Below, one piece after another: positions 197 to 31,419 of a DNA stretch of 64,000 nucleotides. Position 1 is the stretch's first letter. The number at the start of each line of letters is the position of its first letter. The DNA lies in assembly GCA_002356435.2 (NCBI GenBank), contig AP018040.2, positions 2,914,001 through 2,978,000 of the forward strand, given 5' to 3'. The notes beneath the pieces are model-generated. The model had not been told where the DNA came from and made no database searches. It saw only the letters and a program-made list of their open reading frames with translations. The translations under genes were made by a program, and so were the position numbers. Source of the DNA: Petrimonas sp. IBARAKI (GTDB lineage Bacteria > Bacteroidota > Bacteroidia > Bacteroidales > Dysgonomonadaceae).

Positions 197-240
197 ATTA
201 AACCGCAGCAAACAAATGATTTGCTGCGGTTTTTATTTTT
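197..240 (+). repeat. 44-bp direct repeat, left copy (terminator duplication)
   Basis: All 44 bases are identical to 11559-11602 in the same orientation, and identity breaks on both sides. The pair brackets the defence island, so this looks like a duplicated insertion target or an att-type repeat. The repeat includes the dnaK terminator. Confidence 0.85.
201..240 (+). terminator. dnaK rho-independent terminator
   Basis: Perfect 12-bp stem (201-212 with 220-231, AACCGCAGCAAA and its complement), 7-base loop, then a T-rich run to 240. It sits just after dnaK. An identical copy lies at 11563-11602. Confidence 0.9.
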
Positions 241-300
241 GAATTGCACCCAATTTTTACCGGACATTATTGGCGAGCATATGGTCTTAAAGCACCTTAT

Positions 301-316
301 TGTATCTTATTTGTTC
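301..316 (+). repeat. Inner island repeat, left copy (possible recombinase core site)
   Basis: Sixteen bases (TGTATCTTATTTGTTC) match 11462-11477 at 14 positions in direct orientation. The right copy has the symmetrical form GTAC-N7-GTAC, as expected of a tyrosine-recombinase core. This copy is degenerate. The function is inference. Confidence 0.4.
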
Positions 317-351
317 TTATTTGATGTCAATCTAAACGATGTTATTAAATT

Positions 352-669
352 ATGGGATTTAGCAAACTGAAAATACCAAAATTATGCGAGTGCTGTGGTA
401 AGCCATTTGAAGCAAAAACAGTGACTACTCGCTTTTGTAGTTCTGCCTGCATAAATAAGTCGGCAAAAGAAAGAAAACGTCAGGAACAAGAGAAGGAACG
501 CAAACAAACCATACTGGAAATATCTGTAAATAAAATTGCAGAAGTTAAATCTCGTCCATATATTTCTGTCACGGAAGCGACAGTTCTTTTTGGAATATCC
601 AAAAACACCATCCATAGACTTATCAAAGTCGGAGAAATTTCCGCCCACAACTTCGGACAAAGATTAACA
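352..669 (+). pseudogene. Truncated zinc-finger/HTH (excisionase-like) mobile-element protein
   Basis: Starts with an ATG and encodes a cysteine finger (CxxC near residues 12-15, CxxxC near 29-33), a charged helix and then an excisionase-like helix-turn-helix (ISVTEATVLFGISKNTIHRL, about residues 71-90). After residue 106 (..NFGQRLT) the frame runs into unrelated sequence and stops at 738. Proteins of this design occur in Bacteroidales conjugative and mobilizable elements and are longer. The distal half appears replaced by the relaxase fragment that follows, so a deletion has joined two genes. A small DNA-binding product could still be made, but I call it a remnant. Confidence 0.55.
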
Positions 670-670
670 A

Positions 671-1032
671 GTAACCATCCAAACCCTGCGAAACAAACAA
701 GTCAAAGCCTACGGTTTCCGATTTTTGTACGAAGGTAAAACTTTCAAAGCATCGGAAATCGGGCGAGAGTTCGGCTATCGGTCGCTGTCCGTCAGTTCGG
801 ATTGGAAGACGTGAAACCGCAAATCGGGAAAACCGTTGTGCCAATATACGAACCGCCGATGGAGCAGGAAAACGACCTCGGATTATCCGCAATGGTAGCC
901 ACGGCAAATATCGTGAGCGAAATTTCATCCGGCATCGGCAGTCTGCTGAATGTTCACGGAGAGGATTATGAAGAAACGGCTTTTCAACGGAGGCTGAGAG
1001 CGCAACAGAAGAAGAGGAGAAGGAGGATGTGA
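671..1032 (+). pseudogene. Relaxase (mobilization protein) C-terminal fragment, frameshifted
   Basis: The frame starting near 671 reads TLRNKQVKAYGFRF..FKASEIGREFGYRSL. A single-base loss near 788-792 shifts it, and the +1 frame continues QFGLEDVKPQIG to a basic tail QQKKRRRRM and stop at 1030-1032. The tail and the 'ASEIGREFGYRSL..QFGL' segment resemble the C-terminus of Bacteroidales MobB-type relaxases as I remember them. The nuclease domain (three-histidine motif) is absent, so this cannot nick DNA. It marks the island as derived from an integrative or mobilizable element. Family assignment is from memory and should be searched. Confidence 0.45.
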
Positions 1033-1139
1033 TTTTGTTCGATTTGTTCAATATTTTGCTATGTTCATTGAAAATGAACATGTGGTTTTAGTGAACAGAT
1101 GCGATATTGGTGGAATATTTCCCATTATCGTGTTTTAAA

Positions 1140-1173
1140 TTTGAAGGAAGTTGGGTAAAATTCTGTATTTTTG
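1140..1173 (+). promoter_or_regulatory. Bacteroidota-type promoter upstream of rhuM remnant
   Basis: The -7 element TATTTTTG lies at 1166-1173 and a TTTG at 1140-1143. The 22-base spacer is longer than the usual 19-21. Bases 1145-1174 match 1718-1747 upstream of hsdM with two mismatches in 30. Confidence 0.5.
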
Positions 1174-1195
1174 TAGGAGCTAAGACTTTAATAAC

Positions 1196-1636
1196 ATGAA
1201 CAAAGAACTTCAATTCTTGATATACGACACCCCGCAAGAAAATATAAAAATAATAGATGTGGTGGTAAAAGATGAAACCATTTGGCTTACTCAAAAAGCC
1301 ATGGCATCGCTTTTCGATGTGCAAGTACCCGCAATAAGCAAGCACTTGAAAAACATCTACGCAGAAGGTGAACTCGCTGAAAATTCGACTATTTCCAAAA
1401 TGGAAACAGTCGTCAATCGCGGGTTCATGGGCGAGGTTAAAGAACGGATTGACTTCTACAATTTAGATGCTATTATTTCGGTAGGTTATCGTGTAAATTC
1501 TGCCAAAGCCACGCAGTTTAGGATTTGGGCGAATAATTAAGCTGAAACTGAATACGACGCCTTCAACAAAACCCAAAAAATAATTTCCGATTTTGATAAA
1601 GAAATAAAAGCGTTGCAGGAAAAGAATAAAGCGTAA
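1196..1636 (+). pseudogene. RhuM-family protein gene with large internal deletion
   Basis: The first 114 codons match the start of RhuM-family proteins: KDETIWLTQKAMASLFDV, a helix-turn-helix-like stretch, KNIYAEGELAENSTI, then YNLDAIISVGYRVNSAKATQFRIWA. A TAA stop follows at 1538-1540. Directly after it, in the same frame, 31 codons (AETEYDAFNKTQKIISDFDKEI..) match the C-terminal end of the same family and stop at 1634-1636. Full RhuM proteins are about 330 residues, so roughly 180 central residues are missing. RhuM genes are common riders in type I restriction islands, and their function is not established. A truncated DNA-binding protein could still be expressed from the intact promoter. 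Confidence 0.7.
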
Positions 1637-1656
1637 TCTGCAAATCAAGTATTTAG

Positions 1657-1700
1657 CTTCCCGATTTAAAAGAGATTTTCGGTCGGGAAGTTTTGGTTTT
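1657..1700 (+). terminator. Terminator after rhuM remnant
   Basis: Perfect 8-bp stem CTTCCCGA/TCGGGAAG (1657-1664 with 1683-1690) followed by TTTTGGTTTT. It separates the rhuM remnant from the hsd operon. Confidence 0.7.
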
Positions 1701-1711
1701 AAAAAGCAGCC

Positions 1712-1746
1712 TTTGAGAGGAAGTTGGGGAAATTTCTGTATTTTTG
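1712..1746 (+). promoter_or_regulatory. Promoter of the hsd operon
   Basis: TTTG at 1712-1715 and TATTTTTG at 1739-1746, about 70 bases before the hsdM start. It shares a 30-base box with the promoter in front of rhuM (see 1140-1173), so the two units may respond to one regulator. Confidence 0.55.
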
Positions 1747-1817
1747 TGAGGGAAATAAATAGGGATAATCAAATAAATCTATCTTCACATCGTTGATATT
1801 TACACATCAAGTAAAAC

Positions 1818-4271
1818 ATGGCAGTTAAAAAATCAGAATTATATAGCTCATTATGGGCAAGTTGCGATGAATTAAGAGGCAGTATGGATGCAAGTCAATA
1901 CAAAGACTATGTATTGGTGTTGCTATTCATGAAATATGTTTCCGATAAAAAAGACCCACTTATTGAATTAAAAGACGGGACAAGTTTTTACGATATGCTT
2001 AAATGGCGTGGAAAAGACGATATTGGAAACCAAATAAATATCATCATCGGGGAATTTGCGAAAAACAATGGACTTACAAATATAATCACATCAGCCGATT
2101 TCAATGATGAAACTAAATTAGGGACAGGGAAAGATAAAGTTGATACCTTAACTAACTTACTCAATATTTTCAATAAATCCGAGCTCGATTTTTCGGGCAA
2201 TAGAGCCGATGACGACGACCTGCTTGGCGATGCCTACGAATATTTAATGCGAAATTTCGCCACCGAAAGCGGAAAAAGCAAAGGACAATTCTATACTCCG
2301 GCTGAAGTTTCGCGCATAATGTCTCAATTAATTGAGATTTATAAATCAGAAAGTCAGGAAGATACCATATACGATATGACCTGCGGTTCAGGTTCACTAT
2401 TGCTGAAAGCGGCAGATTTGGCTCCGTACGGCATTACCATTTACGGGCAGGAAAATGATAACGCCACACGTGGTTTGGCTGTGATGAATATGTGGTTGCA
2501 CAATTTTGCCGATGCCGAAATTGCTTTGGGAAATACATTGTCAAATCCGCAATTTCTTAAAGAAGAAACAGGCGAGTTGCAACAGTTCTCTTATGCCGTT
2601 GCAAATCCGCCATTCAGCTACAAAAAATGGATGAATGGTTTAGACCCTTCAAACGATATTTTCAAACGCTTTGAAGGATATGCTACGCCACCTGCAAAAA
2701 ACGGCGATTACGCGTTTCTACTTCATATGATTAAATCGATGAAATCAAAAGGGAAAGGGTGTATTGTTATGCCCTTGGGTGTGCTTTTTCGAGGAAATGC
2801 AGAAGCCGATATACGTAAAAAAATAATCGATAAAGGATACATAAAAGCCATAGTGGGGCTACCTGCCAACTTGTTTTTCGGGACAGGAATAGCGGCTTGT
2901 CTTATTGTATTGGACAAGGAAAATGCCGATAAACGGACGCATATTTTTATGATAGATGCAAGCAAGGGATTTATCAAAGACGGCAATAAAAACCGATTGC
3001 GTGAGAGGGATATTCATAAAATTGTTGATACCTATAAAAGTAAAATCGAAAAAGAGGGATATTCTCGCAACATTCCCATTGCTGAAATTGCCGACCCGAA
3101 AAACGACTACAACTTAAACATTCCGCGATACATTAACAACCAAGACACTGACGACGCACAAGATATTGAGGCTCACTTGCTTGGCGGTATTCCTGTAAAC
3201 GACATCAATGCTTTGAACGAATACTGGTCTGTTTGCCCATCGTTAAAGAATACGCTTTTTGGCATTATAAACAACCGCCCCAATCATCTTAATCTACAAG
3301 TAGAAAAAGACCAGATAATCAGCGCCATATACAATCATGCCGAATTTATTAGTTTTATAAACGACATGGGCGAAGTTTATTCGGCTTGGGAAAAAGAAAC
3401 AGCCGAATACTGCAGACAGCTTGATACAGGCATACGTCCCAAAAAAGAAATTGGGAAGATTGCCGAAAATATGCTTTCCCATTTTGACAAACAACCCCTA
3501 ACCGATAAATATGCCGTTTATCAGCACCTGTTGGACTGTTGGAGCGAAACCATGCAGGACGATTTTTATGAAATAAGCGCCGATGGATGGAAAGCAGGAA
3601 ATGAAATAACTCGCCTGCAAAAGAAAAACCAAAAGGGACAGCTTAAAGACATTGCCGGATTGGAAGGATTGGAAGGGCGACTGATACCGCCCGCTTTGAT
3701 TGTGCAGGAATACTTTGCCAAAGAAAAAGCAAAGATTGACGAATTGAGCGAACAAATAGAAACCGCCAAAGCAAAACAAGACGAACTAATAGAAGAAAAC
3801 GCTACGGAAGAAGGATTGCTTGGCGAGATAGTGGACAATAAAGGAAAAGTATCAAAAACCAACGTGAGAAAACGCCTAAAAGAAATCACACCGAAGAAAG
3901 GCGTAAAAATTGATGCGGACTTGAAAGAGGAATTCGATTTGCTTGAAACCTTGACTTGGCTGTATGAGGAGGAAGAGGATAAAAACAAAAAACTGAAAGC
4001 CGAACAAGCCAAATTAGAGATAAAAGTAATAAAACAATATCCGCTACTTAAGGAAAACGAAATAAAACAACTTGTAATTGATAAAAAGTGGATGGCAACG
4101 GTAAAACAACGCATACAAACCGAAATGGATGCCGTAAGCCACCGTCTTACCCAACGTATAAAAGAGCTTGCTGCAAGGTACGAGAACACACTCTCTGAGC
4201 TGACAAACGAGGTGAATTTACTGACCGCCAAAGTAGAAAATCATTTAAAACAAATGAATTACAAATGGTAG
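1818..4271 (+). CDS. hsdM: Type I restriction-modification DNA methyltransferase, HsdM
   Basis: N6-adenine methyltransferase subunit, 817 residues. The N-terminal helical HsdM domain comes first. It is followed by QFYTPAEVS (about 157-165), the S-adenosylmethionine motif DMTCGSGS (about 186-193) and the catalytic NPPF (about 263-266). Usual HsdM proteins are near 500-550 residues. This one carries some 250-300 extra C-terminal residues rich in Glu/Lys with long predicted coiled-coil stretches (about 590-817). With HsdS it forms the methylase, and with HsdR the restriction complex. It is the first gene of the operon and overlaps hsdS by 7 bases (ATGGTAG), implying translational coupling. All catalytic motifs look intact. 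Confidence 0.95.
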   Translation: MAVKKSELYSSLWASCDELRGSMDASQYKDYVLVLLFMKYVSDKKDPLIELKDGTSFYDMLKWRGKDDIGNQINIIIGEFAKNNGLTNIITSADFNDETKLGTGKDKVDTLTNLLNIFNKSELDFSGNRADDDDLLGDAYEYLMRNFATESGKSKGQFYTPAEVSRIMSQLIEIYKSESQEDTIYDMTCGSGSLLLKAADLAPYGITIYGQENDNATRGLAVMNMWLHNFADAEIALGNTLSNPQFLKEETGELQQFSYAVANPPFSYKKWMNGLDPSNDIFKRFEGYATPPAKNGDYAFLLHMIKSMKSKGKGCIVMPLGVLFRGNAEADIRKKIIDKGYIKAIVGLPANLFFGTGIAACLIVLDKENADKRTHIFMIDASKGFIKDGNKNRLRERDIHKIVDTYKSKIEKEGYSRNIPIAEIADPKNDYNLNIPRYINNQDTDDAQDIEAHLLGGIPVNDINALNEYWSVCPSLKNTLFGIINNRPNHLNLQVEKDQIISAIYNHAEFISFINDMGEVYSAWEKETAEYCRQLDTGIRPKKEIGKIAENMLSHFDKQPLTDKYAVYQHLLDCWSETMQDDFYEISADGWKAGNEITRLQKKNQKGQLKDIAGLEGLEGRLIPPALIVQEYFAKEKAKIDELSEQIETAKAKQDELIEENATEEGLLGEIVDNKGKVSKTNVRKRLKEITPKKGVKIDADLKEEFDLLETLTWLYEEEEDKNKKLKAEQAKLEIKVIKQYPLLKENEIKQLVIDKKWMATVKQRIQTEMDAVSHRLTQRIKELAARYENTLSELTNEVNLLTAKVENHLKQMNYKW

Positions 4272-6043
4272 CCGAGGGATATAAAAATACAGAATTTGGA
4301 GTAATTCCGGAGGATTGGGAAATCATGACCTATGATGATGTTTTTATTTTTCTGAAAACAGCAACATATTCACGAGCAGAACTTACTGAAAACGACAATA
4401 TAGGATATGTACATTATGGCGATATTCATACTAAATGCCAAAGTTATTATTTAGATTTAGATACTATTAAACTTCCGACAATTTCATTTGACCAGTTAAA
4501 AAATTATGCATACATACAAAATGGAGACATTATTGTTGCTGATGCTTCGGAAGATTATTTAGGTGTTGGGAAAAGTGTAGAAATAAAAAACATCCGTAAT
4601 CGAAAAGTTATTTCAGGACTACACACTTTTCTGCTTCGAAGTAAAAATGACAATATTGTGAATGGCTTCAAAGGTTTAATCTTTTACAATAAACTTGTAA
4701 AACAACAGATTGATGTTTATGCAACAGGATTAAAAGTATATAGCATTTCAAAAAACATCCTAAAAACCATACAAATACCTTTTCCCTCATCAAAAGCCGA
4801 GCAAACCGCCATAGCCACAGCATTATGCGATGCCGATACACTGATTACTGCCACCGAAAAGCTGATAGCCAAGAAAAAAGCAATAAAACAAGGCGCTATG
4901 CAGGAGCTGCTTAAACCAAAAGAGGGATGGGTGGAAAAGACGATTGATGATGTTGGAATTATTAATTATGGCACAAGAATAGTACAAAACAAACAAAATG
5001 GTGGACGTTATTATGTCTATGGGGGTGGAGGAAAAACTTTTACAACACATAAATTTAATAGAGAAAATTGTTTAATCATATCAAGATTTGCTATATCGAT
5101 TGAATGTGTTAGGTTTATTAAGGAAAAGTTTTTCTTAAACGATAGTGGATTAACAGTCAAATCTAAAAATAATATAGACCAAAATTTTTTAGATTATGTA
5201 ATTATTTCCAAAGCAAACGAAATTTACAATTTGGGTGCTGGTGGTGCACAACATAATCTAAACATTCAGGACTTTATACAAATTAAACTTTTTGTTCCTA
5301 AAAATATATCCGAGCAAACCCGCATAGCCACTATTCTATCCGATATGGATTCCGAAATATCATTATTAGAACAAAAATTAGAAAAGCAAAAACAGATAAA
5401 GCAGGGTATGATGCAGAATTTGTTAACGGGTAAAATAAGATTTCTTGGGAATATTGAAAAGAGAGCCGAAAAGCCAAAACACAATGAACAGATAAATGAG
5501 GCGGTTATTATCAGTTTTTTGGTAAATAAATTTGGTTCAGAAGGGTTTCCTTTATCTCGTTTTCGTTACACAAAATATTCTTATTTATTACATCGCCAAA
5601 GCGAGAAAGAAGCACGTGGCTTTGGTAAGCATGCCGCTGGTCCTTATAATCCCGCTAACCGATACAAGGGTGCAGAAAACATTGCATTGAAAAACAAATA
5701 CATTTCAAAAGTACAAAACCCGAAAAGCAAAAAAGATGCATTTGTTGTAAATGAAAACATTGAGGGTGCTTTAAATTATTTTACTGAATGGTATGGAACA
5801 GAAATTCAGCAATGGATAGAGCAATTTAAATTTTACAAAAATGAATATTTGGAGGTGCTTACAACCGTAGATAAAGCAATATGCGATTTGAAAAAAGAAA
5901 ATAAAAGTGTTTCTCTGCAAACCGTTAAGGGATTAATAGAGGCAGACAAAGTGTGGAAAAAGAAGTTAGATAAACCTTACTTTTCTGATACAGAGATACA
6001 GAAAGCCATTGATGAAAGTAACAGATTGTTTGGATATGGATAA
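4265..6043 (+). CDS. hsdS: Type I restriction-modification specificity subunit HsdS with extra C-terminal domain
   Basis: Recognises the two half-sites of the target. Two target-recognition domains (about 1-180 and 220-355) are each followed by a conserved helix. The first helix region reads AEQTAIATALCDADTLI..KQGAMQELL (from about 179), the second SEQTRIATILSDMDSEI..KQGMMQNLLTGKIRF (about 351-396). Normal HsdS ends there. This protein continues for about 190 residues (roughly 400-592) with KYSYLLHRQSEK, FGKHAAGPYNPANRYKG and a helical tail. The motif with 'AAGPY' recalls Panacea-type antitoxin-like domains, but that is only a resemblance. It overlaps the end of hsdM, and hsdR starts 28 bases after the stop. 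No second hsdS or invertase is nearby. Confidence 0.93.
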   Translation: MVAEGYKNTEFGVIPEDWEIMTYDDVFIFLKTATYSRAELTENDNIGYVHYGDIHTKCQSYYLDLDTIKLPTISFDQLKNYAYIQNGDIIVADASEDYLGVGKSVEIKNIRNRKVISGLHTFLLRSKNDNIVNGFKGLIFYNKLVKQQIDVYATGLKVYSISKNILKTIQIPFPSSKAEQTAIATALCDADTLITATEKLIAKKKAIKQGAMQELLKPKEGWVEKTIDDVGIINYGTRIVQNKQNGGRYYVYGGGGKTFTTHKFNRENCLIISRFAISIECVRFIKEKFFLNDSGLTVKSKNNIDQNFLDYVIISKANEIYNLGAGGAQHNLNIQDFIQIKLFVPKNISEQTRIATILSDMDSEISLLEQKLEKQKQIKQGMMQNLLTGKIRFLGNIEKRAEKPKHNEQINEAVIISFLVNKFGSEGFPLSRFRYTKYSYLLHRQSEKEARGFGKHAAGPYNPANRYKGAENIALKNKYISKVQNPKSKKDAFVVNENIEGALNYFTEWYGTEIQQWIEQFKFYKNEYLEVLTTVDKAICDLKKENKSVSLQTVKGLIEADKVWKKKLDKPYFSDTEIQKAIDESNRLFGYG

Positions 6044-6071
6044 GTATTCAATAGACTAAAAACTATTTACT

Positions 6072-9000
6072 ATGAGCGACATCGGAAAAATAGAACGAGA
6101 AACCCAAAATAGATTGGTTAAACTGTTTCAAAATGAGCTTGGATACAAATACTTAGGAATTTGGGAAAAACGTGAAGGAAACAGCAATGTTGAAGCTGAT
6201 ATTCTGAAAGATTGGTTGCTGAACAAAAGAAAAATATCAGCGGGTTTAGCTGATAAAGCTATTTTTGAGGTTGAAAAATTTTCCAACGACCAAAGTAATC
6301 TGTATGATGTAAATAAAACGTTTTACTCATTACTTCGGTATGGCGTAAATGTTCAAGCAGCTATTGGTCAGAACAAACAAACAGTTTGGCTTATTGACTG
6401 GGAAAATCCCGAGAAAAACGACTTTTCCATTGCCGAAGAAGTTACCATTGATAGCAAATATTACAAGAAACGTCCGGATATTGTTCTTTATATCAATGGA
6501 ATTGCTATTGGTGTTTTAGAGCTGAAGCGAAGCACAGTTTCGATTTCCGAAGGAATTCGCCAAAATTTAGACAATCAAAAACATATATTCATAAAGCCCT
6601 TTTTCAATACTATTCAGTTTGTTCTTGCCGGAAACGATGTACAAGGTTTGGAGTACGGGACTATCGGAACCAAAGAAAAGTACTTCTTGAAATGGAAAGA
6701 GGTAAACGAAGAAAAAGATAAAGCCTACCCACATCTATTAGAAATCACAAAATCAATCAGAGAAAAATCAGAAAAGTATAGCTATCCATTAGATAAAAGT
6801 ATCATAGAAATGTTTAACAAAGAACGTTTCGTTGAGCTGTTGCGTGATTTTGTGGTTTTCGATAGAGGAATAAAAAAACTTTGTCGTCCCAATCAGTATT
6901 TCGGAATAAAATCGGCACAGGATTTTATCATCCGACGTGAGGGAGGCATTATTTGGCATACGCAAGGGAGTGGTAAAAGTTTAACCATGGTTTGGCTTAC
7001 CAAATGGATTAGAAAACACAATCCGAATGCACGAGTGCTAATCATCACAGACCGTGAGGAATTAGACGAGCAGATTGAAAAAGTTTACAAAGGTGTTGAT
7101 GAAGAGATTTATCGTACGAAAAGCGGAAGAGACTTATTGGAAAAACTAAACAACACTTCGCCTTGGTTGCTTTGTTCGCTAATCCACAAGTTTGGCGGAA
7201 AAGAGGAAGTGGACGAGAAAGATGTGGAAAACTACTTGACAGACCTAAAAAAGAGTATCCCGTCAGATTATAGCGCGAAAGGCGATATTTACGTTTTTGT
7301 AGATGAATGCCACCGCACACAATCGGGAAAACTGCATGATGCTATGAAGGTTTTCGTTCCTGATGCATTGTTTATAGGTTTTACCGGCACGCCACTATTG
7401 AAAACCGACAAGCAGACAAGTTTGGAGATTTTTGGTCGATATATTCATACCTATAAATTTGATGAAGCCGTACAGGATAAAGTTATCTTGGATTTACGCT
7501 ATGAAGCACGTGACGTAAAACAAAACATTACTTCGCACGACAACATAGACCAATGGTTTGAACTGAAAACAGAAGGACTAACCGACTTTAAGAAAACTGA
7601 GCTGAAACAAAAATGGGGGACACTTAAAAAAGTGTTTAGCAGTAAATCGCGATTAGAAAAAATTGTGATGGACATTTTGATGGACATGGCTCGCAAAGAG
7701 CGTTTGCAAAACGGTCATGGCAACGCTATACTCGTTTCCGACAGTATTTACAACGCTTGCAGGTATTTTGAATTATTCCAACAATCTGGTTTTAAACAAT
7801 GCGCCATTATTACTTCTTTTGTACCCAATCATAACGATATAAAAGGAGAGGAATCTGGTGAAGGGTACACCGAAAAATTAAAGCGTTTTGAAATTTATCA
7901 GAAGATGCTTTCTGATTATTTTAACGAACCGTCAGATAAAGCATTGACAAAAATTGATGTTTTTGAAAAGGAGGTAAAAAAGAAGTTTGTAGAAGAACCT
8001 GCTCAAATGAAATTACTCATTGTTGTAAACAAACTACTTACCGGATTTGATGCTCCTCCGGCAACTTATCTTTACATTGACAAAAACCTGCAAAATCACG
8101 GCTTGTTTCAAGCTGTTTGCCGAGTAAATCGTCTTGATGGCGATGATAAGGATTATGGCTATGTTATCGACTATATGGACTTGTTCAAAAGCTTAGAACA
8201 AGCATTTCACGATTATACATCGGAAGCTTTATCGGGATACGAGAAATCGGACATTGAAGGCTTGCTAAAAGATCGACTAAAATCAGGAAAAGAAAGATTA
8301 GACGAAGCTTTAGAAGCTATAAAAGCACTCATAGAACCGGTTGAACCGCCTAAAAACACCATTGATTTTATCCATTACTTTTGTGGCAAAGACACAGGAA
8401 ACAAAGAAGAACTGAAAGAAACAGAGCCTCGCAGAGTGTCGTTATACAGGCTGACTATCTCACTAATAAGAGCATACAGCAACATTGTCGACGAGTTAAG
8501 TAAAGCGGGTTATTCCGACAAGGAAATAGAGCAAATTAGGGCAGACGTAAAATATTTTGAAAATGTTCGTGAGATTGTTCAGTTGGCTAGTGGCGACTAT
8601 GTTGACTTAAAGCAATATGAACCTGCCATGAGGTATTTAATAGATAGCTATATTGATGCAGAAAGCAGTAAAGTACTTGCCAATTTTGATGATTTTAGCT
8701 TAATTGATTTGTTAGTAGAACGAGGAGAAAGTGCATTGGAGGTTTTGCCCGAAGAGATTAAATCTAGTAACGAAGCTATGGCAGAAGCTATTGAAAACAA
8801 CTTACGTAAGGTAATCATTGAGCAAAGTCCTACCAATCCGATGTACTATGAGAAAATGAGCGTTTTGTTGGATGAGATAATTAAGTTAAGAAACTCGGAA
8901 ACATTAGATTATCAAAAATATTTACAAAGAATAATAGCGTTATCTACCCAAGTTAAAAAACCAGAGACAACTACCTATCCTTTTGCCATTAACACAAATG

Positions 9001-9221
9001 CTAAAAGAGCGTTATTCGACAACTTAGATAAAAATGAAGACTTGGCAGTAGCTTTAGATGAAAAAGTTCGCAGAACGAAAAAGCCAGGCTTTAGGCAACA
9101 TAAGCAAAAATCAAGGGCAGTTCGAATAAGCATTCAAGAGGTTTTGGCTAAATTCGGCATAACTGACGAAGAAGAAATACATCGCATTTTTGATTTAGTT
9201 AAAAACCAAGAGGAATACTAA
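6072..9221 (+). CDS. hsdR: Type I restriction endonuclease HsdR
   Basis: ATP-dependent DNA translocase and nuclease, 1049 residues, the usual size. The N-terminal PD-(D/E)xK nuclease is visible as RPDIVLY..VLELKRS (about 134-154). The superfamily 2 helicase motor follows: Walker A TQGSGKS (about 297-303), DECH Walker B (about 411-414), GFTGTP, and motif VI QAVCRVNRLDG. The C-terminal helical region binds the HsdM2S core. All motifs appear intact, so restriction should be active. It follows hsdS by 28 bases. Its TAA shares a base with the ATG of the downstream metalloprotease gene, so that gene is co-translated with the restriction subunit. Confidence 0.95.
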   Translation: MSDIGKIERETQNRLVKLFQNELGYKYLGIWEKREGNSNVEADILKDWLLNKRKISAGLADKAIFEVEKFSNDQSNLYDVNKTFYSLLRYGVNVQAAIGQNKQTVWLIDWENPEKNDFSIAEEVTIDSKYYKKRPDIVLYINGIAIGVLELKRSTVSISEGIRQNLDNQKHIFIKPFFNTIQFVLAGNDVQGLEYGTIGTKEKYFLKWKEVNEEKDKAYPHLLEITKSIREKSEKYSYPLDKSIIEMFNKERFVELLRDFVVFDRGIKKLCRPNQYFGIKSAQDFIIRREGGIIWHTQGSGKSLTMVWLTKWIRKHNPNARVLIITDREELDEQIEKVYKGVDEEIYRTKSGRDLLEKLNNTSPWLLCSLIHKFGGKEEVDEKDVENYLTDLKKSIPSDYSAKGDIYVFVDECHRTQSGKLHDAMKVFVPDALFIGFTGTPLLKTDKQTSLEIFGRYIHTYKFDEAVQDKVILDLRYEARDVKQNITSHDNIDQWFELKTEGLTDFKKTELKQKWGTLKKVFSSKSRLEKIVMDILMDMARKERLQNGHGNAILVSDSIYNACRYFELFQQSGFKQCAIITSFVPNHNDIKGEESGEGYTEKLKRFEIYQKMLSDYFNEPSDKALTKIDVFEKEVKKKFVEEPAQMKLLIVVNKLLTGFDAPPATYLYIDKNLQNHGLFQAVCRVNRLDGDDKDYGYVIDYMDLFKSLEQAFHDYTSEALSGYEKSDIEGLLKDRLKSGKERLDEALEAIKALIEPVEPPKNTIDFIHYFCGKDTGNKEELKETEPRRVSLYRLTISLIRAYSNIVDELSKAGYSDKEIEQIRADVKYFENVREIVQLASGDYVDLKQYEPAMRYLIDSYIDAESSKVLANFDDFSLIDLLVERGESALEVLPEEIKSSNEAMAEAIENNLRKVIIEQSPTNPMYYEKMSVLLDEIIKLRNSETLDYQKYLQRIIALSTQVKKPETTTYPFAINTNAKRALFDNLDKNEDLAVALDEKVRRTKKPGFRQHKQKSRAVRISIQEVLAKFGITDEEEIHRIFDLVKNQEEY

Positions 9222-9937
9222 TGGAGCAAATTAGCATCTCAAATATAACCATTGATGTTGTTAGAAAAGATATAAAAAACATACATCTTGCTGTATATCC
9301 GCCTACCGGAAGGATAAGGCTCGCCGCACCACTAAACGTCTCTGACGATGCTATCCGATTATTCGCCATTTCAAAAATTGCTTGGATAAAAAGAAATCAA
9401 CGAAAATTTGAAGGACAAGAACGAATGGCAGTTAGAGTATATAAACAAAGAGAAAGCCATTATTTTTTAGGGCAAAGATATTTACTGAATATTATTGAAG
9501 AAAATACCACCCCAAAAGTAGTTGTAAGAAGCAAGACTTATATTGATTTGTATATTCGTCCGAATACTCCGACAGAAAAAAGGGAAGAGATAATGAGAGA
9601 GTGGTATCGAAATGAATTAAAAAAACTGATACCGCCAATTATTAATAAATGGGAGAAGGCAACAAAAATTGAAGTAAGTGATTGGCAAGTAAAACTAATG
9701 AAAACAAAATGGGGTTCGTGCAATATTGAGGATAGAAAAATTTGGATAAACCTTGAATTAATTCACAAGCCCATTCATTGTTTAGAATATATTATTTTAC
9801 ATGAAATGGTTCATTTGGTTGAACGCCATCATAATGAGCGATTTCAATATTATATGGATAGTTATATGCCAAACTGGAAATACATTCGTGCTGAATTGAA
9901 TAAACTTCCCGTTAGCCATGCTGATTGGGAGTATTGA
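9221..9937 (+). CDS. YgjP-like (DUF45) zinc metallopeptidase, linked to the type I system
   Basis: A protein of 238 residues of the YgjP/COG1451 family. The zinc motif HEMVH (about 194-198) is followed by ER and HHNERF, and the family hallmark MKTKWGSCN lies about 20 residues before the histidines. Families of this type are often encoded directly after hsdR, but their role in restriction is unknown. Regulated proteolysis of HsdR is one possibility. There is no signal peptide, so it is cytoplasmic. Its start overlaps the hsdR stop (TAATG), which indicates tight coupling. The length is normal for the family. Confidence 0.9.
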   Translation: MEQISISNITIDVVRKDIKNIHLAVYPPTGRIRLAAPLNVSDDAIRLFAISKIAWIKRNQRKFEGQERMAVRVYKQRESHYFLGQRYLLNIIEENTTPKVVVRSKTYIDLYIRPNTPTEKREEIMREWYRNELKKLIPPIINKWEKATKIEVSDWQVKLMKTKWGSCNIEDRKIWINLELIHKPIHCLEYIILHEMVHLVERHHNERFQYYMDSYMPNWKYIRAELNKLPVSHADWEY

Positions 9938-9965
9938 AACCTTTAAAAACAAGAGATTGATTAAT

Positions 9966-11432
9966 ATGCTTACCTACGCCCAACTCACCCAACTCCTTTC
10001 CTCCACCGAAAGCTCACACGTAGAACGCACCGCGTCCACCGACAATATGGACAAGTTCTGCCAAGCTATCTGTGCCTTTTCAAACGATGTTTCGGGAAGT
10101 GGCGAGAACGGCTATTTGATAATCGGTGCGAATGATAACGGAACATTGTCCGGTCTGAAAGTGAATGACAAGTTGCTTTTACAAATATCCAACATTCGCA
10201 CAGACGGAAACATCCTGCCACAACCGGTAATGACGGTAGAGAAATTATCTTTCGACGAAGGCGATGTGCTGGTTGCCGAAGTTCAGCCGTCGGAATTTCC
10301 GCCCGTGCGTTATCGTGGACGAATTTGGGTGAGGGTTGGTCCGCGTAAAAGCACCGCCACGGAAGCGGAAGAAAAGATATTGACCGAACGTCGCCTATCC
10401 AATGTTCACACTTTCGACGCGATGCCCTGCTTGGGAACTACCATCAACGATTTGGACGTGAAACTCATTAAAAAAGAATTTCTACCCAAAGCTGTTGCCG
10501 AAGAAATTTTGGCAGAAGACAAACGCAGTATCGAAGAGCAACTTGCATCACTCGGATTTTACGACTTGCGATACAACTGCCCAACCAACGGCGCCATCGT
10601 TCTTTTTGGCACAAATCCCGAGCGATATCTGCACGGTTCATACATTCAATACGTTCGTTTTAAAGGGAAAGACCGCGCCGGCGACATTATCAACGAGCAT
10701 AAATTTGGCGGGAACTTAACCAAAGAATTACCCAAAATCGACACGTTTATCGAAACCAGCATTTCTCAGAAACGCCCTATACCGGTAAGTGTTTTGCGCG
10801 AAGAAACTGTTTCCAAGTACCCATATTGGGCTACCCGCGAGTTGCTGATGAACGCCATTATGCACCGCGATTACGAAACCAATGCACCCGTGCAGTTTTA
10901 CGAGTACGACGACCGCATCGAAATACAAAATCCGGGCGGATTATACGGCAAAGTAAGTCCGGCTAATTTCCCCAACGTGAGCGATTATCGGAATCCGTTT
11001 ATTGCAGAAGCAATGAAAGTGTTGGGTTATGTCAATCGTTTCAGTCGTGGCGTGTATCGGGTGCAGAAAGAATTGGTTGAGAATGGCAACGGCAAAGCTG
11101 AATTTGATTTTTCGTTAATTACGGCTTTTCGAGTGGTAGAAAAAGTTACGGATAAATACTTTGAAGAAGGATTTGGAACAGAAACTACCCAGAACACAAA
11201 TAGTACTACCCAAGAAACTACCCAAGAAGCGGATGGCACTACCCAAGAAACTACCCAAGAAATTATTTTGAGAATGATAGAGGAAAAACCTGCAGTAACT
11301 CAAAAAGAGTTAGCAGAAATAATCGGGATCAGTATAAATGGTGTAAAATATCATATTCAGAAAATGTCAAAACAAGGCATAATCAAACACGAAGGTGCCA
11401 CGAAATCTGGCAAATGGGTCATAAAAAAGTGA
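9966..11432 (+). CDS. AlbA_2/Schlafen-type ATP-binding regulator with C-terminal winged helix
   Basis: The ATG at 9966 is preferred. An upstream in-frame ATG at 9918 lies inside the previous gene and adds residues without family likeness. The N-terminus (SSHVERTAS..DKFCQAICAFSND) is an AlbA_2 (Schlafen-like) domain. The middle (LLMNAIMHRDYETNAPVQ, then IEIQNPGGL, RNPFIAEAM) matches the C-terminal ATPase-like region of RecG-like transcriptional regulators (COG2865). A Thr/Gln-rich linker built from a repeated TTQE unit joins it to a C-terminal winged helix (TQKELAEIIGISINGVKYHIQKM). Such proteins occur in defence islands and may regulate or sense. It is the last gene of the operon, beginning 28 bases after the metalloprotease stop. 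Confidence 0.8.
   Translation: MLTYAQLTQLLSSTESSHVERTASTDNMDKFCQAICAFSNDVSGSGENGYLIIGANDNGTLSGLKVNDKLLLQISNIRTDGNILPQPVMTVEKLSFDEGDVLVAEVQPSEFPPVRYRGRIWVRVGPRKSTATEAEEKILTERRLSNVHTFDAMPCLGTTINDLDVKLIKKEFLPKAVAEEILAEDKRSIEEQLASLGFYDLRYNCPTNGAIVLFGTNPERYLHGSYIQYVRFKGKDRAGDIINEHKFGGNLTKELPKIDTFIETSISQKRPIPVSVLREETVSKYPYWATRELLMNAIMHRDYETNAPVQFYEYDDRIEIQNPGGLYGKVSPANFPNVSDYRNPFIAEAMKVLGYVNRFSRGVYRVQKELVENGNGKAEFDFSLITAFRVVEKVTDKYFEEGFGTETTQNTNSTTQETTQEADGTTQETTQEIILRMIEEKPAVTQKELAEIIGISINGVKYHIQKMSKQGIIKHEGATKSGKWVIKK
11184..11261 (+). repeat. 12-bp minisatellite encoding TTQE linker
   Basis: The unit ACTACCCAAGAA occurs as two perfect tandem copies at 11205-11228 and two at 11238-11261, split by 9 bases. 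A degenerate copy starts at 11184. Because the unit is a multiple of three, copy-number change would lengthen or shorten the linker without frameshift. Confidence 0.85.
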
Positions 11433-11461
11433 ATGTAACCGATATCAAAAATGCTATTATC

Positions 11462-11477
11462 TGTACCTTATTTGTAC
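11462..11477 (+). repeat. Inner island repeat, right copy (possible recombinase core site)
   Basis: TGTACCTTATTTGTAC contains the inverted repeat GTAC around a 7-base centre, the layout of tyrosine-recombinase core sites. It matches 301-316 at 14 of 16 positions. It lies between the last island gene and the outer 44-bp repeat. Confidence 0.4.
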
Positions 11478-11558
11478 CACACAAGCATATCTAATTGATT
11501 TTCAGCAGCCATTACTTTTGAAGAAGGAAGTAATCTATAGAGTTTATTATTAAATACT

Positions 11559-11602
11559 ATTAAACCGCAGCAAACAAATGATTTGCTGCGGTTTTTATTT
11601 TT
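11559..11602 (+). repeat. 44-bp direct repeat, right copy (terminator duplication)
   Basis: Identical over 44 bases to 197-240. It closes the island. The stretch between the island's last gene (stop 11432) and the next gene (11825) otherwise holds the inner repeat, a promoter and a possible gene fragment. Confidence 0.85.
11563..11602 (+). terminator. Second copy of the dnaK-type terminator, ending the hsd operon
   Basis: Same 12-bp stem, 7-base loop and T-rich tail as at 201-240. It now terminates transcripts coming from the AlbA_2 gene. Confidence 0.85.
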
Positions 11603-11824: not shown

Positions 11825-12916
11825 ATGTTCAAATCATTTTTTATTGGAGAAAAAGAAATTATGCTACCCATAATTCAGGGCGGTATGGGTGTTGGTATAT
11901 CACTTTCAGGCTTAGCTTCGGCGGTAGCCAACGAAGGAGGAATTGGAGTGATTTCAAGTGCAGGCTTAGGATTGCTATACCGGCGAAAACCGGGCGATTA
12001 TCTGAAAGACTGCATTTGGGGACTGAAAGAAGAATTGCGCAAATCTCGCGAAAAGTCCAAAGGAACAATCGGTGTAAATATCATGGTTGCTTTGTCAAAT
12101 TTCGCCGATATGGTGCGCACCACAATTGCTGAAAAGGCCGATATAATTTTTGCGGGTGCAGGATTGCCCTTGGATTTACCATCCTACTTATCAACATCAA
12201 GCGATACAAAACTCGTTCCCATCGTATCATCAGCACGTGCCGCAAAAGTGATTTGCGAAAAGTGGCACACCAATTACGATTATCTCCCAGATGCCATTGT
12301 GGTAGAAGGCCCCAAAGCAGGAGGCCACCTCGGTTTTAAGAGAGAAAATCTGGAGGATGCGAATTACTCCTTGGAAAAGCTAGTTCCAGAAGTGCTGGCA
12401 ATTGCCACAAGTTACAAAGACAAGAAAACAATTCCCGTAATTGCTGCCGGCGGAATTTCTACCGGGGAAGATATTCTTCGTTTTATCCAGCTTGGCGCAT
12501 CAGGCGTACAGATAGGAAGTCTCTTTGTGCCAACCGATGAGTGTGACGCTTCAGATGCATTTAAGCAAATTTATGTCAACTCCTTACAATCGGACCTGAT
12601 GATTATTCAAAGTCCGGTGGGTATGCCGGGGCGCGCTTTTCAGGGAGATTTTTTAGATAGCGTCAGTGCTGGCAACGAAATACCCAAATCGTGTCCTTAC
12701 CACTGTATCAAGACCTGCGATTATTCAAAAAGCCCATATTGCATAATCAAAGCGTTGTATAATGCTTCAAAAGGCAGGATGAACCGTGGATACGCATTTG
12801 CCGGAGCAAACGCCTATCTGACAGAAAAAATATCCAGTGTAAGAGAAGTGATTTCAAAACTAAAAAAAGAATTTATTGCTGCTGAATTTCTATCGGGTAA
12901 GGAGATAGCGCATTAA
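11825..12916 (+). CDS. Nitronate monooxygenase-like FMN oxidoreductase
   Basis: A TIM-barrel flavoenzyme of the 2-nitropropane dioxygenase/nitronate monooxygenase family, about 363 residues. Motifs: PIIQGGMGVGIS near the N-terminus, GVNIMVA, VEGPKAGGHLGF (phosphate/FMN loop), PVIAAGGISTG, then GASGVQIGSLF. The C-terminus has a cysteine-rich segment SCPYHCIKTCDYSKSPYC, seen in some anaerobe members and possibly metal-binding. The ATG at 11825 is chosen because it places the usual 10-15 residues before PIIQGGM. The in-frame ATG at 11780 would add 15 unlike residues. The physiological substrate is unknown: nitronate detoxification is the family default, and enoyl-ACP reductase FabK is a relative. 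Cytoplasmic. Confidence 0.85.
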   Translation: MFKSFFIGEKEIMLPIIQGGMGVGISLSGLASAVANEGGIGVISSAGLGLLYRRKPGDYLKDCIWGLKEELRKSREKSKGTIGVNIMVALSNFADMVRTTIAEKADIIFAGAGLPLDLPSYLSTSSDTKLVPIVSSARAAKVICEKWHTNYDYLPDAIVVEGPKAGGHLGFKRENLEDANYSLEKLVPEVLAIATSYKDKKTIPVIAAGGISTGEDILRFIQLGASGVQIGSLFVPTDECDASDAFKQIYVNSLQSDLMIIQSPVGMPGRAFQGDFLDSVSAGNEIPKSCPYHCIKTCDYSKSPYCIIKALYNASKGRMNRGYAFAGANAYLTEKISSVREVISKLKKEFIAAEFLSGKEIAH

Positions 12917-27462: not shown

Positions 27463-29379
27463 ATGAAGCACTTATTATTCAAACCAAGGACAGAATACTT
27501 TGCAGTACTATTATTATGCTTTCTGTTAGCATCTTGTGCAAACGGAATTGGAGGCAAAGAGTCAAAAATTAGTCTGAATGGGGATGAATTAACAACAATT
27601 GCTGTGTCAGCAACAGCATCGTATAGGGAAAAGTTTGCAGCTGAGGAGCTGGCAAGCTACTTAAATAAAATTACGGGTAAAGAGCTATCAGTCATCACGG
27701 TTGACAGCTCCATGGTACCCGATGGAACTATCGCGATTGGTGAGTTATCAGTCAGTTCCGGAATGATTTCGCGAGAAGAGCTTGGCCCTATAGGTGAGGA
27801 TGGATTTGTAATTAACATTGCTGATAATAAGGGAGCTATATGTGGATGGCGTGATTTAGGAACAGTTTACGGGGTATATGAACTTTTAAAACAGGTTGGC
27901 GTGAAATTTTACGCGGAGGATTGCGAAATTATTCCAAGCAAATCTAAGCTTAAAATACCCGAATTGCATCTCGCTATTAAGCCTCATTATGAACTGAGGT
28001 CAATTTTTAAAATGGATGTTTACTATCCTGAGTTTCATTCCTACCTTAAATTTGGATATACTCCTAATGATGATTTAGGATATCATGGTGATCTTGGGGC
28101 ACCAGGTGAAAGAAACTGGGTTCATTCTGCAAGTTATTTGATTCCATTTCGAAAATTTGGTAAAGACCACCCAGAGTACTTTGCACTTAATAATAATGGA
28201 CAGAGATATTCTGGAACTGGATCTCCCGGCCATTTGTGCCTGTCAAATATGGAGATGCGTGAAACGGGAGCAGAACGTTTATTATTGCTTGTAGAACAGC
28301 AAAAAGAAAGATCCTATTTTGTCGTTACTCAAGGGGATGGCGGGCCAACGAACTGGTGTCAGTGTGATGAATGTAAGGCTTTTGACTCTAAGCCAAGTGT
28401 TCACATGACTGACCGCCTCATGGATTATGTTAATTATAATGCAAGGAAAGTAACTGAAAAATTTCCTGAGAAAAAAATACTTACATTGGCCTATACATCA
28501 GCAACCGCAAGCCCACCGGTGCGAGTTGTACCAGATTCTAATGTAATGGTTATGTATTGTCCATTACATCGCCCCGAACCTAATTATGACGGAGAATGTC
28601 ATAGTCATGGGTTAGATTGTATAAATAACTTATGGGCAAAAAAAGATATTGAAAATTGGCTTTCCCTGTATCCTAATAACATGTATATTTTCGACTATCC
28701 GAGAAATTATTTCAGATGGTATCAGCCTTTTGGTGGTTTTTATGCGATGGTTGACAAGATGGATTATTATTCATCCAATAATATTCGTGGAATTACCTTT
28801 TGCGTTGTCCCCGCAAATTTTCGAGATTTATTTATTTATGTTATGGGACATTTGCTGTGGGAACCCGACTCGAATGTTGAAGCACTAATTGATGAATTCA
28901 TGTCAGCTTATTATGGAGCTGCTGCCACATCCATCCGGGAATACTTTGATTTCATGTATAACGAAATTGATGTTCGCGATATACATCAACACTCTGAAAA
29001 ATCAAATCCCGAACTTGTTACTCCTGAATTTTCAGCTTCAGCCCTGAAATTTTTTGAACGTGCACAGAAAGCAGTTGCAGATGATTCAGTTCTTTTATCT
29101 CGTGTGGAATTCGAGAAATTCAGTGTTCTTTGGGCTGATATTGATCAAAGAAATATTATGAAAAACAATCTTTCGATTGACCTTTCTGTACATGCTAAGC
29201 GATTTGGTGAAATGGTCAGAATAGCTAAAAAACATAAAATGATTAATGTAGGAGGAAGAATTACTTTTAAAGATTGGATTCATCAGGTATCACCAATACG
29301 GTTGCAAAATGAATTATGGTATAATGATCCTGCAGTTGATATTTTAATTGATAAACCTGAGAATTTATTCCTACTATAA
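27463..29379 (+). CDS. DUF4838-type lipoprotein, putative glycoside hydrolase (copy 1)
   Basis: A protein of 638 residues. A lipoprotein signal ends in LLASC with the lipidated cysteine at residue 25. The N-terminal domain (about 40-170; KFAAEELASYLNKITGKEL, TVYGVYELLKQVGVKFYAED) resembles the N-terminal alpha/beta domain of alpha-glucuronidases and many DUF4838 proteins. The following barrel has VTQGDGGPTNWCQCDECKAFD with clustered cysteines, typical of DUF4838. Activity for the family is undefined; a glycan-active enzyme on the outer or inner membrane is likely. About 300 bases of its N-terminal coding region are almost identical to copy 2 (29509-31419). Confidence 0.75.
   Translation: MKHLLFKPRTEYFAVLLLCFLLASCANGIGGKESKISLNGDELTTIAVSATASYREKFAAEELASYLNKITGKELSVITVDSSMVPDGTIAIGELSVSSGMISREELGPIGEDGFVINIADNKGAICGWRDLGTVYGVYELLKQVGVKFYAEDCEIIPSKSKLKIPELHLAIKPHYELRSIFKMDVYYPEFHSYLKFGYTPNDDLGYHGDLGAPGERNWVHSASYLIPFRKFGKDHPEYFALNNNGQRYSGTGSPGHLCLSNMEMRETGAERLLLLVEQQKERSYFVVTQGDGGPTNWCQCDECKAFDSKPSVHMTDRLMDYVNYNARKVTEKFPEKKILTLAYTSATASPPVRVVPDSNVMVMYCPLHRPEPNYDGECHSHGLDCINNLWAKKDIENWLSLYPNNMYIFDYPRNYFRWYQPFGGFYAMVDKMDYYSSNNIRGITFCVVPANFRDLFIYVMGHLLWEPDSNVEALIDEFMSAYYGAAATSIREYFDFMYNEIDVRDIHQHSEKSNPELVTPEFSASALKFFERAQKAVADDSVLLSRVEFEKFSVLWADIDQRNIMKNNLSIDLSVHAKRFGEMVRIAKKHKMINVGGRITFKDWIHQVSPIRLQNELWYNDPAVDILIDKPENLFLL
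27673..27966 (+). repeat. Near-identical tract shared by the two DUF4838 genes, copy 1
   Basis: 294 bases match 29716-30009 with a single difference that I can find (27780 G versus 29823 A), although the genes diverge on both sides. This points to recent gene conversion or a partial duplication. Confidence 0.85.
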
Positions 29380-29508: not shown

Positions 29509-31419
29509 ATGAAAACTTTAAAAATTGATCGAAAAGCTTTTATGTTTTTCATGACTCTCCTCATCACGATAACATCTTGTACTACCGGTATTGGTGACGG
29601 CAAGTCGAAAATCAGCCTAAGCAAGGATGAATTAACAACAATTGCTGTGTCAACAACAGCATCTGATAGGGAAAAGTTTGCGGCAGAAGAGCTTGCAAGT
29701 TATTTAAATAAAATAACGGGTAAAGAGCTATCAGTCATCACGGTTGACAGCTCCATGGTACCCGATGGAACTATCGCGATTGGTGAGTTATCAGTCAGTT
29801 CCGGAATGATTTCGCGAGAAGAACTTGGCCCTATAGGTGAGGATGGATTTGTAATTAACATTGCTGATAATAAGGGAGCTATATGTGGATGGCGTGATTT
29901 AGGAACAGTTTACGGGGTATATGAACTTTTAAAACAGGTTGGCGTGAAATTTTACGCGGAGGATTGCGAAATTATTCCAAGCAAATCTAAGCTTAAAATA
30001 CCCGAATTGCGTCTCGCTATTAAGCCTCATTATGATCTAAGGACAATATTTAAGTATGATGTTTACTTCAAGGGAATTACGCCAAGTATGAAATTGGGGT
30101 ACACCCCCAATGATGATATGGGGTATCACGGTGATTTAGGTGCTCCCGGGGAGAGAAACTGGGTACATTCAGCCAGTTTTATGATGCCTTATCGTTTATT
30201 CGGAGAAGAGCATCCAGAGTATTTTGCTTTGAACAAGAGTAGTGAGCGAGTTAAGCCCGGTGAGGGACCTCCTGGACACTTATGCTTGTCGAACATGGAG
30301 ATGCGTGAAACGGGAGCAGAAAGGCTACTCCATTTGATTGAAAAGCAGGAAAATCGAACATCTTTTGTTGTCACTCAGGGCGATGGCAGATCGAATAGTT
30401 GGTGTCAGTGCAGCAATTGCAAAGCGCTTGATGCAATACCCGGAGATCATATGACCGATAGGCTGATGGACTATGTCAATTACAATGCCCGGGTGGTAAA
30501 CGAGAAGTACCCAGGGAAAAAAATATTGACACTCGCTTACACGGAGGCTACCTCACGCCCTCCCGAGAGAGTGATGCCTGATCCGAACGTTATGGTTATG
30601 TATTGCCCCTACCCTCCTCAAACACCATGCCAGAGCCATGGTTTGGACTGCCCTGAGAATAGCCAGGGTTTTGCTGAACTACAAGGCTGGATAGAAAAAT
30701 GTCCTGATAACATGTATATCTATGATTATCCCAGAGGCTACAGGGTATGGTACGAGCCCTTCGGGAGCTTTTATGCCATGGTTGATAAAATGAATTTTTA
30801 TGCTTCTAATGGAATTAAGGGAATCGTTCAGTGTGTAGTTCCTACAAGTTTTACCGATCTGTTCGTTTTTGTGCAGGGAGTACTGTTTTGGGAACCTGAT
30901 GCTGATGTGGAAAAACTTATAGATGAATTCATGGATGCCTACTATGGGGAAGCAGCACCTCATATGAGGGAGTATTTCAATTTCATGCATAATGAAATTA
31001 ATACCCGTAATGTGCATCAAGGTTGTGAAAGTCCAAATCCTGATCTTGTAACTGCTGAATATGCCGACAACGCTTTGGTTATGTTTGATAAGGCACAAAA
31101 TGCTGTTGCAGATGATCCGGCTGCATTATACCGTGTTGAGTTGGAAAAGTTTTGTCTTCTGTTTTCTGATGTAAATCAACGAAACACGATAAATGATGAG
31201 TTGACGATTAGTATGCCTGAACACTCTAAACGTCTGGCTGAAACAGTAAGAATAGCAAGAGAAATGGAGGTTATTCGCGTTGGGAACATGCCCAATATGA
31301 TGAATTTTAAAAATTGGCTTAGAAGCGTTTCCCTATTAACACTTCAGTCAGAACCTTGGTATTACGATCCGGGTGTTGATGCTTTTCTGAACAATCCTGA
31401 GAATATTTTCATTTATTGA
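29509..31419 (+). CDS. DUF4838-type lipoprotein, putative glycoside hydrolase (copy 2)
   Basis: A protein of 636 residues, a paralogue of the preceding gene product with the same layout: lipoprotein signal ending ITITSC (Cys24), GH67-N-like domain, then the DUF4838 barrel with VTQGDGRSNSWCQCSNCKALD. The N-terminal domain is almost identical to copy 1 at the DNA level, while the barrel differs clearly (for example KYDVYFKGITPSMKLG against KMDVYYPEFHSYLKFG). That suggests the two enzymes act on related but different substrates. It lies 129 bases after copy 1 and precedes the symporter gene, separated from it by a hairpin. Confidence 0.75.
   Translation: MKTLKIDRKAFMFFMTLLITITSCTTGIGDGKSKISLSKDELTTIAVSTTASDREKFAAEELASYLNKITGKELSVITVDSSMVPDGTIAIGELSVSSGMISREELGPIGEDGFVINIADNKGAICGWRDLGTVYGVYELLKQVGVKFYAEDCEIIPSKSKLKIPELRLAIKPHYDLRTIFKYDVYFKGITPSMKLGYTPNDDMGYHGDLGAPGERNWVHSASFMMPYRLFGEEHPEYFALNKSSERVKPGEGPPGHLCLSNMEMRETGAERLLHLIEKQENRTSFVVTQGDGRSNSWCQCSNCKALDAIPGDHMTDRLMDYVNYNARVVNEKYPGKKILTLAYTEATSRPPERVMPDPNVMVMYCPYPPQTPCQSHGLDCPENSQGFAELQGWIEKCPDNMYIYDYPRGYRVWYEPFGSFYAMVDKMNFYASNGIKGIVQCVVPTSFTDLFVFVQGVLFWEPDADVEKLIDEFMDAYYGEAAPHMREYFNFMHNEINTRNVHQGCESPNPDLVTAEYADNALVMFDKAQNAVADDPAALYRVELEKFCLLFSDVNQRNTINDELTISMPEHSKRLAETVRIAREMEVIRVGNMPNMMNFKNWLRSVSLLTLQSEPWYYDPGVDAFLNNPENIFIY
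29716..30009 (+). repeat. Near-identical tract shared by the two DUF4838 genes, copy 2
   Basis: Counterpart of 27673-27966 at a constant offset of 2043 bases. Confidence 0.85.

Follow-up and report, generated by a model that had tools for sequence, protein, structure and literature searches.

This analysis concerns a 64,000-nt stretch of the Petrimonas sp. IBARAKI genome, here called the window, and an island that lies in it directly behind dnaK. Coordinates are positions in this stretch unless a genome or locus is named; the whole genome (3.69 Mb) is referred to as G000, and other genomes and loci by G and L numbers. As originally described, the island is inserted beside dnaK, with one terminator behind that gene and another at the island's far end. 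The locus is organized as follows.

1-167, + strand: 3' end of the host gene dnaK, stop codon at 165-167 (entire gene, G000:C1:2912245-2914167)
153-167, + strand: putative left attachment core (attL), the last dnaK codons and stop, GAGGAAGTAAAGTAA; the core is duplicated at both ends in relatives
168-198, + strand: element-borne spacer from the dnaK stop to the terminator, matching the left spacer of the Dysgonomonas hofstadii dnaK element (L186) at 30/31 positions
200-240, + strand: left terminator, on the element side, consisting of a hairpin and T-tract that now follow dnaK; within the 44-bp repeat at 197-240
241-351, + strand: left arm region with CCTTATT-type repeats, placed by alignment; putative arm sites
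352-660, + strand: truncated excisionase-like protein, zinc-finger-like N-terminus and helix-turn-helix (HTH) domain HTH_17, 74% identical to the intact copy beside dnaK in G022
661-1032, + strand: MobA/VirD2-type relaxase, frame-broken C-terminal remnant, with an open reading frame (ORF) at 802-1032
1196-1540, + strand: RhuM-family gene, N-terminal fragment
1818-4271, + strand: hsdM, type I methyltransferase (PADLOC MTase_I, 817 aa)
4265-6043, + strand: hsdS, type I specificity subunit with a long C-terminal extension (PADLOC Specificity_I, 592 aa)
6072-9221, + strand: hsdR, type I restriction subunit (PADLOC REase_I, 1049 aa)
9221-9937, + strand: YgjP-like metallopeptidase
9918-11432, + strand: Schlafen/AlbA_2, RecG-C-like and winged-helix protein
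11433-11519, + strand: putative right arm of the element; the motif ATTTGTACCA (11470-11479) precedes the core by 40 bp
11520-11533, + strand: putative right attachment core (attR), GAAGAAGGAAGTAA, one base fewer than in relatives
11559-11602, + strand: host-side terminator, the right copy of the 44-bp repeat; the original downstream flank begins after it

The most conspicuous feature of the island is a 44-bp direct repeat, at 197-240 and 11559-11602, which is exact, as first reported; when the window was shuffled 100 times with dinucleotides preserved, no such match arose. The repeat is predicted to form a strong hairpin of the terminator type (-22.2 kcal/mol, z -6.5), and its 33-bp hairpin core occurs at exactly two sites in the genome, even with 3 mismatches tolerated. 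The statement that identity stops at once outside the repeat holds on the right, where similarity ends immediately; on the left, an AT-rich tract extends the pairing to 89% over 65 bp. The possibility that the terminator sequence is a dispersed repeat, widespread at unrelated loci, was considered and rejected: besides the two copies in this genome, any match at all was found in 3 of 61 genomes, its own included. Just outside the 44 bp lies a shorter direct repeat, formed by the two putative cores at 153-167 and 11520-11533.

Between the repeats are mobile-element remnants and a complete type I restriction-modification (RM) operon, with hsdM, hsdS and hsdR adjacent and full-length, which agrees with the original description. 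The absence of an integrase was also borne out, none being present in the ORF list of the island or in a Pfam scan of its eight main ORFs. The excisionase-like ORF continues beyond its homology to position 738. The relaxase remnant gave no match against plasmids and nothing convincing against the proteins of other elements; its identity came from comparison with a congener protein, as ORF 802-1032 matches the C-terminal part of a 325-aa PF03432 relaxase from G007 at 84% identity. Where relatives are intact, an integrase follows the HTH gene, so the integrase would fall in the segment that is missing from the window. The window copy, judged from its gene content, is a relic, with a truncated excisionase-like gene, no integrase, a relaxase stub and an intact type I operon. 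Since its HTH gene is truncated and no integrase was found, we regard it as a relic rather than as a self-moving member of the element family described below, whose other members have both genes.

The two best foreign matches of the window HTH gene sit directly behind dnaK, in G022 (another genus, 74% identity) and G038 (another family, 60%). At these loci the HTH gene is followed by a tyrosine integrase, which in G022 has Arm-DNA-bind_5, SAM_5 and Phage_integrase domains. Elements of this kind for which both ends are known allow the attachment site to be located. The end of dnaK is present twice in G022 (191705/214118), G239 (406884/389348), G322 (145398/190048), G419 (278569/313033), G257 (62440/56484) and G038 (118561/155259), and it is also doubled in the congener G004, where the second copy is at L057:15470. 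To the right of the core, the relatives have host DNA with its own hairpin. Because the relatives with both ends repeat this core, and the host hairpin lies beyond its right copy, the target is identified as the 3' coding end of dnaK, that is, its last codons and stop (GARGARGTNAARTRA), with the terminator 25-30 bp further on. In the window this sequence is also found at both ends, the left copy within dnaK (153-167) being exact and the right copy (11520-11533) lacking one base. The original proposal that the terminator served as the insertion target is therefore not sustained; the core lies in the coding end of dnaK, and the 44 bp do not constitute the attachment repeat. An island's longest direct repeat need not be its attachment site.

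The right end of the island also resembles those of other elements. The distance from ATTTGTACCA to the right core is 39-41 bp in six of seven other right ends (G004, G022, G038, G322, G239 and G257), as compared with 40 bp in the window. In a shuffle test that covered four of the seven other right ends aligned (G004, G022, G239 and G291), the window right arm aligned to those of G004, G022 and G239 better than did 500/500 shuffles. A search for right ends with exact 11-mers of the left end produced scattered short matches, and the right ends were recognized by inspection around the arm motif. By eye, the sequence to the right of the G419 core resembles the left end of another element, and tandem or stacked elements are apparent in G253, G333, G006 (contig 11), G291 (contig 2) and G419. 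At L165 (G006 contig 11, around position 245449, minus strand), an element left end is preceded by only ~39 bp of dnaK-like sequence; the 10 kb fetched contain no match to dnaK, and the dnaK gene of G006 is on contig 14. This locus is probably either an internal junction within a stack of elements or an insertion at a stray site.

The association between this type of integrase and dnaK was examined in two samples. With the G022 integrase as query, 86 of 393 genomes of the order gave a match at E 1e-30 or better. Matches of at least 56% identity occur in 14 of the 393 (two of them N-terminal pieces), and all 14 genomes have one behind dnaK, as established from fetched loci in 12 cases and from the sequence around the core in G257 and G240. 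None of the 18 fetched loci with at most 53% identity is behind dnaK, 1.1-1.5 kb of upstream sequence being visible. A 110-aa C-terminal integrase fragment was seen on contig 1 of G253. The second sample consisted of the best 80 of 374 integrase relatives from a named-genome collection. A dnaK end lies at most 2 kb upstream, on the same strand, at 72 of these best 80; the remaining eight comprise five cut by contig ends (L200, L204, L244, L253 and L256) and three at other sites (L201, L203 and L227). The two samples overlap (G239 is L185, and G384 is L243; the query G022 is L179). The hosts include Dysgonomonas, Parabacteroides, Bacteroides, Prevotella, Porphyromonas, Tannerella, Draconibacterium, Flavobacterium and Epilithonimonas.

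A tree was built from 61 integrases: G022, 30 loci of the order, two further loci and 28 of the 80 named loci, picked so as to include the three exceptions. A clade with SH-aLRT support of 100 contains 38 dnaK rows and three other rows, and all 20 outgroup rows are at other sites. When counted as distinct loci (two pairs of rows represent the same place), 37/40 are at dnaK in the clade versus 0/19 in the outgroup. The integrase of L203, which is not at dnaK, is identical to that of L202, which is, and we therefore take the three exceptions to be elements of the same kind that inserted at stray sites. On this sequence evidence, a family of mobile elements at the dnaK site occurs across Bacteroidota, in several orders of one phylum, and its integrase is predicted to target the last dnaK codons.

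The left terminator travels with these elements. Among the best 80 named loci, a hairpin of at least 11 paired bases starts 25-40 nt behind the dnaK stop in 69 of the 69 that could be measured, with a T-rich tail in 68; L194, L195 and L226 were left out of this count as their dnaK match stopped short. One shuffle per locus, used as a control, reached that stem strength in 0/69. The window has the same arrangement, with its terminator 31 nt behind the stop. The spacer and hairpin are retained at the non-dnaK sites L203 and L227, those of L203 being the same as at L202. The left spacer of the window was expected to be the host's own; it was found instead to match that of the D. hofstadii element at 30/31 positions. 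Left and right hairpins were non-identical in all six other elements measured (28/51 in G022, 22/39 in G239, 25/46 in G322, 26/35 in G038, 18/37 in G257 and 30/36 in G419), and the two terminators of G004 also differ by eye, as against 35/35 in the window. The left terminator is accordingly the element's own, and the right terminator is that of the host side. The original suggestion that the terminator had been rebuilt on both sides stands to the extent that there is one at each end; the two would have different origins, and their identity is not shared by the other six pairs.

An island-free relative with a single terminator and joined flanks, which the original prediction had anticipated, is provided by the congener G008. 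There, the dnaK match ends at C108:29289, a single hairpin occupies 29324-29356 and a nitronate monooxygenase gene starts at 29596. The same gene forms the right-hand flank of the island in the window, and the G008 copy is 98% identical. The flank past the terminator (from 11603 in the window) is identical at 388/397 positions and dnaK at 1702/1794, while the G008 hairpin is inverted relative to that of the window, with one base changed. A search at E 1e-80 did not recover the monooxygenase gene (window 11834-12916) from the seven congeners searched in addition to G008, several of which are incomplete, and the right flank of the island may itself be an acquired segment. A G008-type hairpin is also present at L061 (G015 contig 64, in a bin of another genus) beside a 204-aa monooxygenase stretch of 98% identity; the bin's own dnaK is 88% identical, and the contig is probably misbinned.

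A second congener, G004, has an 11.5-kb island behind dnaK, which is like that of the window in its site, the kind of right end and its restriction cargo; HTH and integrase queries likewise give no match in it. It differs in having an MmeI-type IIG enzyme and a helicase gene in place of the type I system, and in its two unlike terminators.

Cargo was surveyed by running PADLOC on hand-picked long ORFs from elements with both ends known. Among the proteins tested, seven of the eight elements gave a defence or candidate-defence match: type I RM in the window; GmrSD, AbiEii and DrmA/DrmB in G022; SspB, SspC and SspD in G038; type I RM and OLD in G239; DrmMI and a DpdE/DrmD-like protein in G419; the candidate PDC-S01 in G257; and an MmeI-like type IIG enzyme in G004. 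The eighth, G322, had no PADLOC match among the four long proteins tested, and two of these four (L170 11023-15545) are an AcrB-type efflux pump and an outer-membrane efflux protein. Picked proteins without a PADLOC match also occurred in G419 (1/3), G257 (1/2), G004 (3/4) and G022 (1/3). Further candidates lie near dnaK-site integrases in G177 (L174 7001-12263; a type I REase, an adjoining Argonaute and the candidate PDC-S68, 11-20 kb from the integrase) and G094 (a helicase and a type IIG enzyme, 7-14 kb away), although the right ends of these two were not located and the genes may be outside the element. Relaxase families had no match among ten G022 proteins scanned; one DUF5712 protein is present, which we take to be mobilization-related. 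Because the cargo varies between elements, with a defence or candidate-defence match in seven of eight, the dnaK site is best described as a hotspot of differing elements, as the original prediction had proposed might be found.

Two further observations concern the genes of the window island. A 30-bp direct repeat of 93% identity (1145-1174 and 1718-1747) brackets the RhuM fragment and possibly represents repeated promoters or a small insertion scar. In HsdS, with its long C-terminal extension, residues 354-583 weakly match the NCBIfam model for the DarG antitoxin (E 2.7e-6; 26.9 bits, the cut-off being 250).

Taken together, the cores at both ends, the joined and empty site of a congener, the similarity of the ends to those of other elements and the tie of the integrase clade to dnaK make it very probable that the region from ~168 to ~11519 is the relic of a site-specific tyrosine-integrase element, inserted at the dnaK 3' coding end and bringing its own terminator. 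The ancestral element was probably mobilizable.

Several observations weigh against this interpretation. The window lacks an integrase, and one base is missing from its attR core, so the mechanism is read from relatives. The ATTTGTACCA motif is absent from the right end of G419, and the alignment of the window right arm with that of G291 is no better than chance (33/500 shuffles were as good). The right spacer (11534-11558) is unlike the G008 spacer despite the nearly identical flank beyond it, which indicates that the host side was altered too. Another type of terminator is present in G005 and G007 and at the right end of G004, and G008 may not represent the pristine ancestral site. Finally, identical terminators are not predicted by the basic model, and a second event is required.

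There are two accounts of that second event, and we consider them about equally probable: copying between the hairpins after insertion, or a donor of the same lineage that gave an identical pair. Homogenisation by copying fits the non-identical pairs of the other elements, the switch of similarity at the hairpin, both between the left and right copies and between the right copy and G008, while the spacers differ, and the shortened left arm of the window: relative to G022 it lacks ~45 bp directly after the T-tract, where the 44-bp identity stops. However, the direction of copying cannot be told and no intermediate was seen, and the inverted G008 hairpin with its one changed base permits other histories.

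Arrival by homologous exchange or ordinary transposition, without a dedicated integrase, is improbable. No integrase was found in the island, the conserved flanks would permit exchange of the whole allele between strains, and an already inserted island could have moved in this way; these points must be set against the element-type ends on both sides and the integrase clade tied to the same site. Of the two origins left undecided by the original prediction, site-specific or by homologous exchange, we favour a site-specific element that has lost its integrase. An attachment site in the dnaK terminator itself, with the 44 bp as the duplication made by integration, is very improbable even though the repeat is exact, has only two genome copies and, as a hairpin with a short loop, is similar in shape to a tyrosine-recombinase core, because relatives repeat the coding end while their terminators differ, the spacer and hairpin stay with elements that sit elsewhere than at dnaK, and the element's right end, in the window included, stops at the coding-end core, 25 bp before the 44-bp repeat.

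If the island is an integrase element as proposed, its tyrosine integrase, binding at the arm sites, would have recombined the element's copy of the last dnaK codons with the real ones, inside GARGARGTNAARTRA. Integration would restore the final codons and stop of dnaK and add the element's own ~30-nt spacer and terminator. Because the element would supply this spacer and terminator, dnaK would retain a proper 3' end, and the excisionase-like HTH and integrase genes would sit behind a terminator. After integration, a deletion between the HTH and relaxase genes may have removed the integrase and most mobilization genes, the type I cargo being kept; mobilization would have been in trans. The two terminators would have become identical later, through copying between hairpins or through the same-lineage donor.

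A regulatory role for the replacement terminator can be suggested only tentatively. The excisionase-like and integrase genes lie directly behind dnaK, in the same direction, in the loci seen. It is conceivable, though we think it unlikely, that the terminator works for the element, with stress read-through coupling dnaK induction (by heat or phage infection) to expression of these genes, and with host and element hairpins recombining so as to edit the site. If so, a defence-bearing element would read the host stress response from its docking site.

Insertion at the 3' ends of genes is a known strategy of mobile elements. SGI1, for example, inserts at trmE/mnmE. According to a review of integrative and mobilizable elements (IMEs), NBU1 and NBU2 insert at tRNA 3' ends and another element at the yicC 3' end (PMC5704250). 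The dnaK elements share with such IMEs and islands a tyrosine integrase, a direct repeat of the gene 3' end with cargo between its copies, an excisionase-like gene and a gene product left unchanged or nearly so; they differ in having dnaK as the target and in carrying a replacement spacer and terminator. The nearest complete counterparts of the window island belong to the same element family and are found in Dysgonomonas sp. 520 (L179, G022) and Parabacteroides sp. PF5-6 (L185, G239), with dnaK core, left terminator, HTH gene, integrase, right arm and core. Unlike the window, both have a full-length integrase, and their cargo differs from that of the window island (GmrSD, AbiEii and DrmA/DrmB in L179; type I RM and OLD in L185). 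The word dnaK is absent from the main text of PMC5704250, and no report of dnaK as an attachment site was found in the literature surveyed (including PMC4755523, PMC4589449, PMC5714932, PMC5524665, PMC9826266 and PMC4978471), though unlisted or subscription papers might hold one. One surveyed paper lists a DnaK protein inside a predicted Flavobacterium island, not as an attachment site. While mobile elements at gene 3' ends are known, dnaK as their site thus appears to be new within these sources.

The analysis defines the end of dnaK, an essential stress gene, as a place where mobile elements with defence cargo dock in several orders of one phylum. The region behind dnaK is an area in which to search for new defence systems of Bacteroidota, and the integrase and its attachment site could serve as a pair in Bacteroidota genetics. 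An element of this type would safeguard the host gene into which it inserts by carrying that gene's last codons and a terminator.

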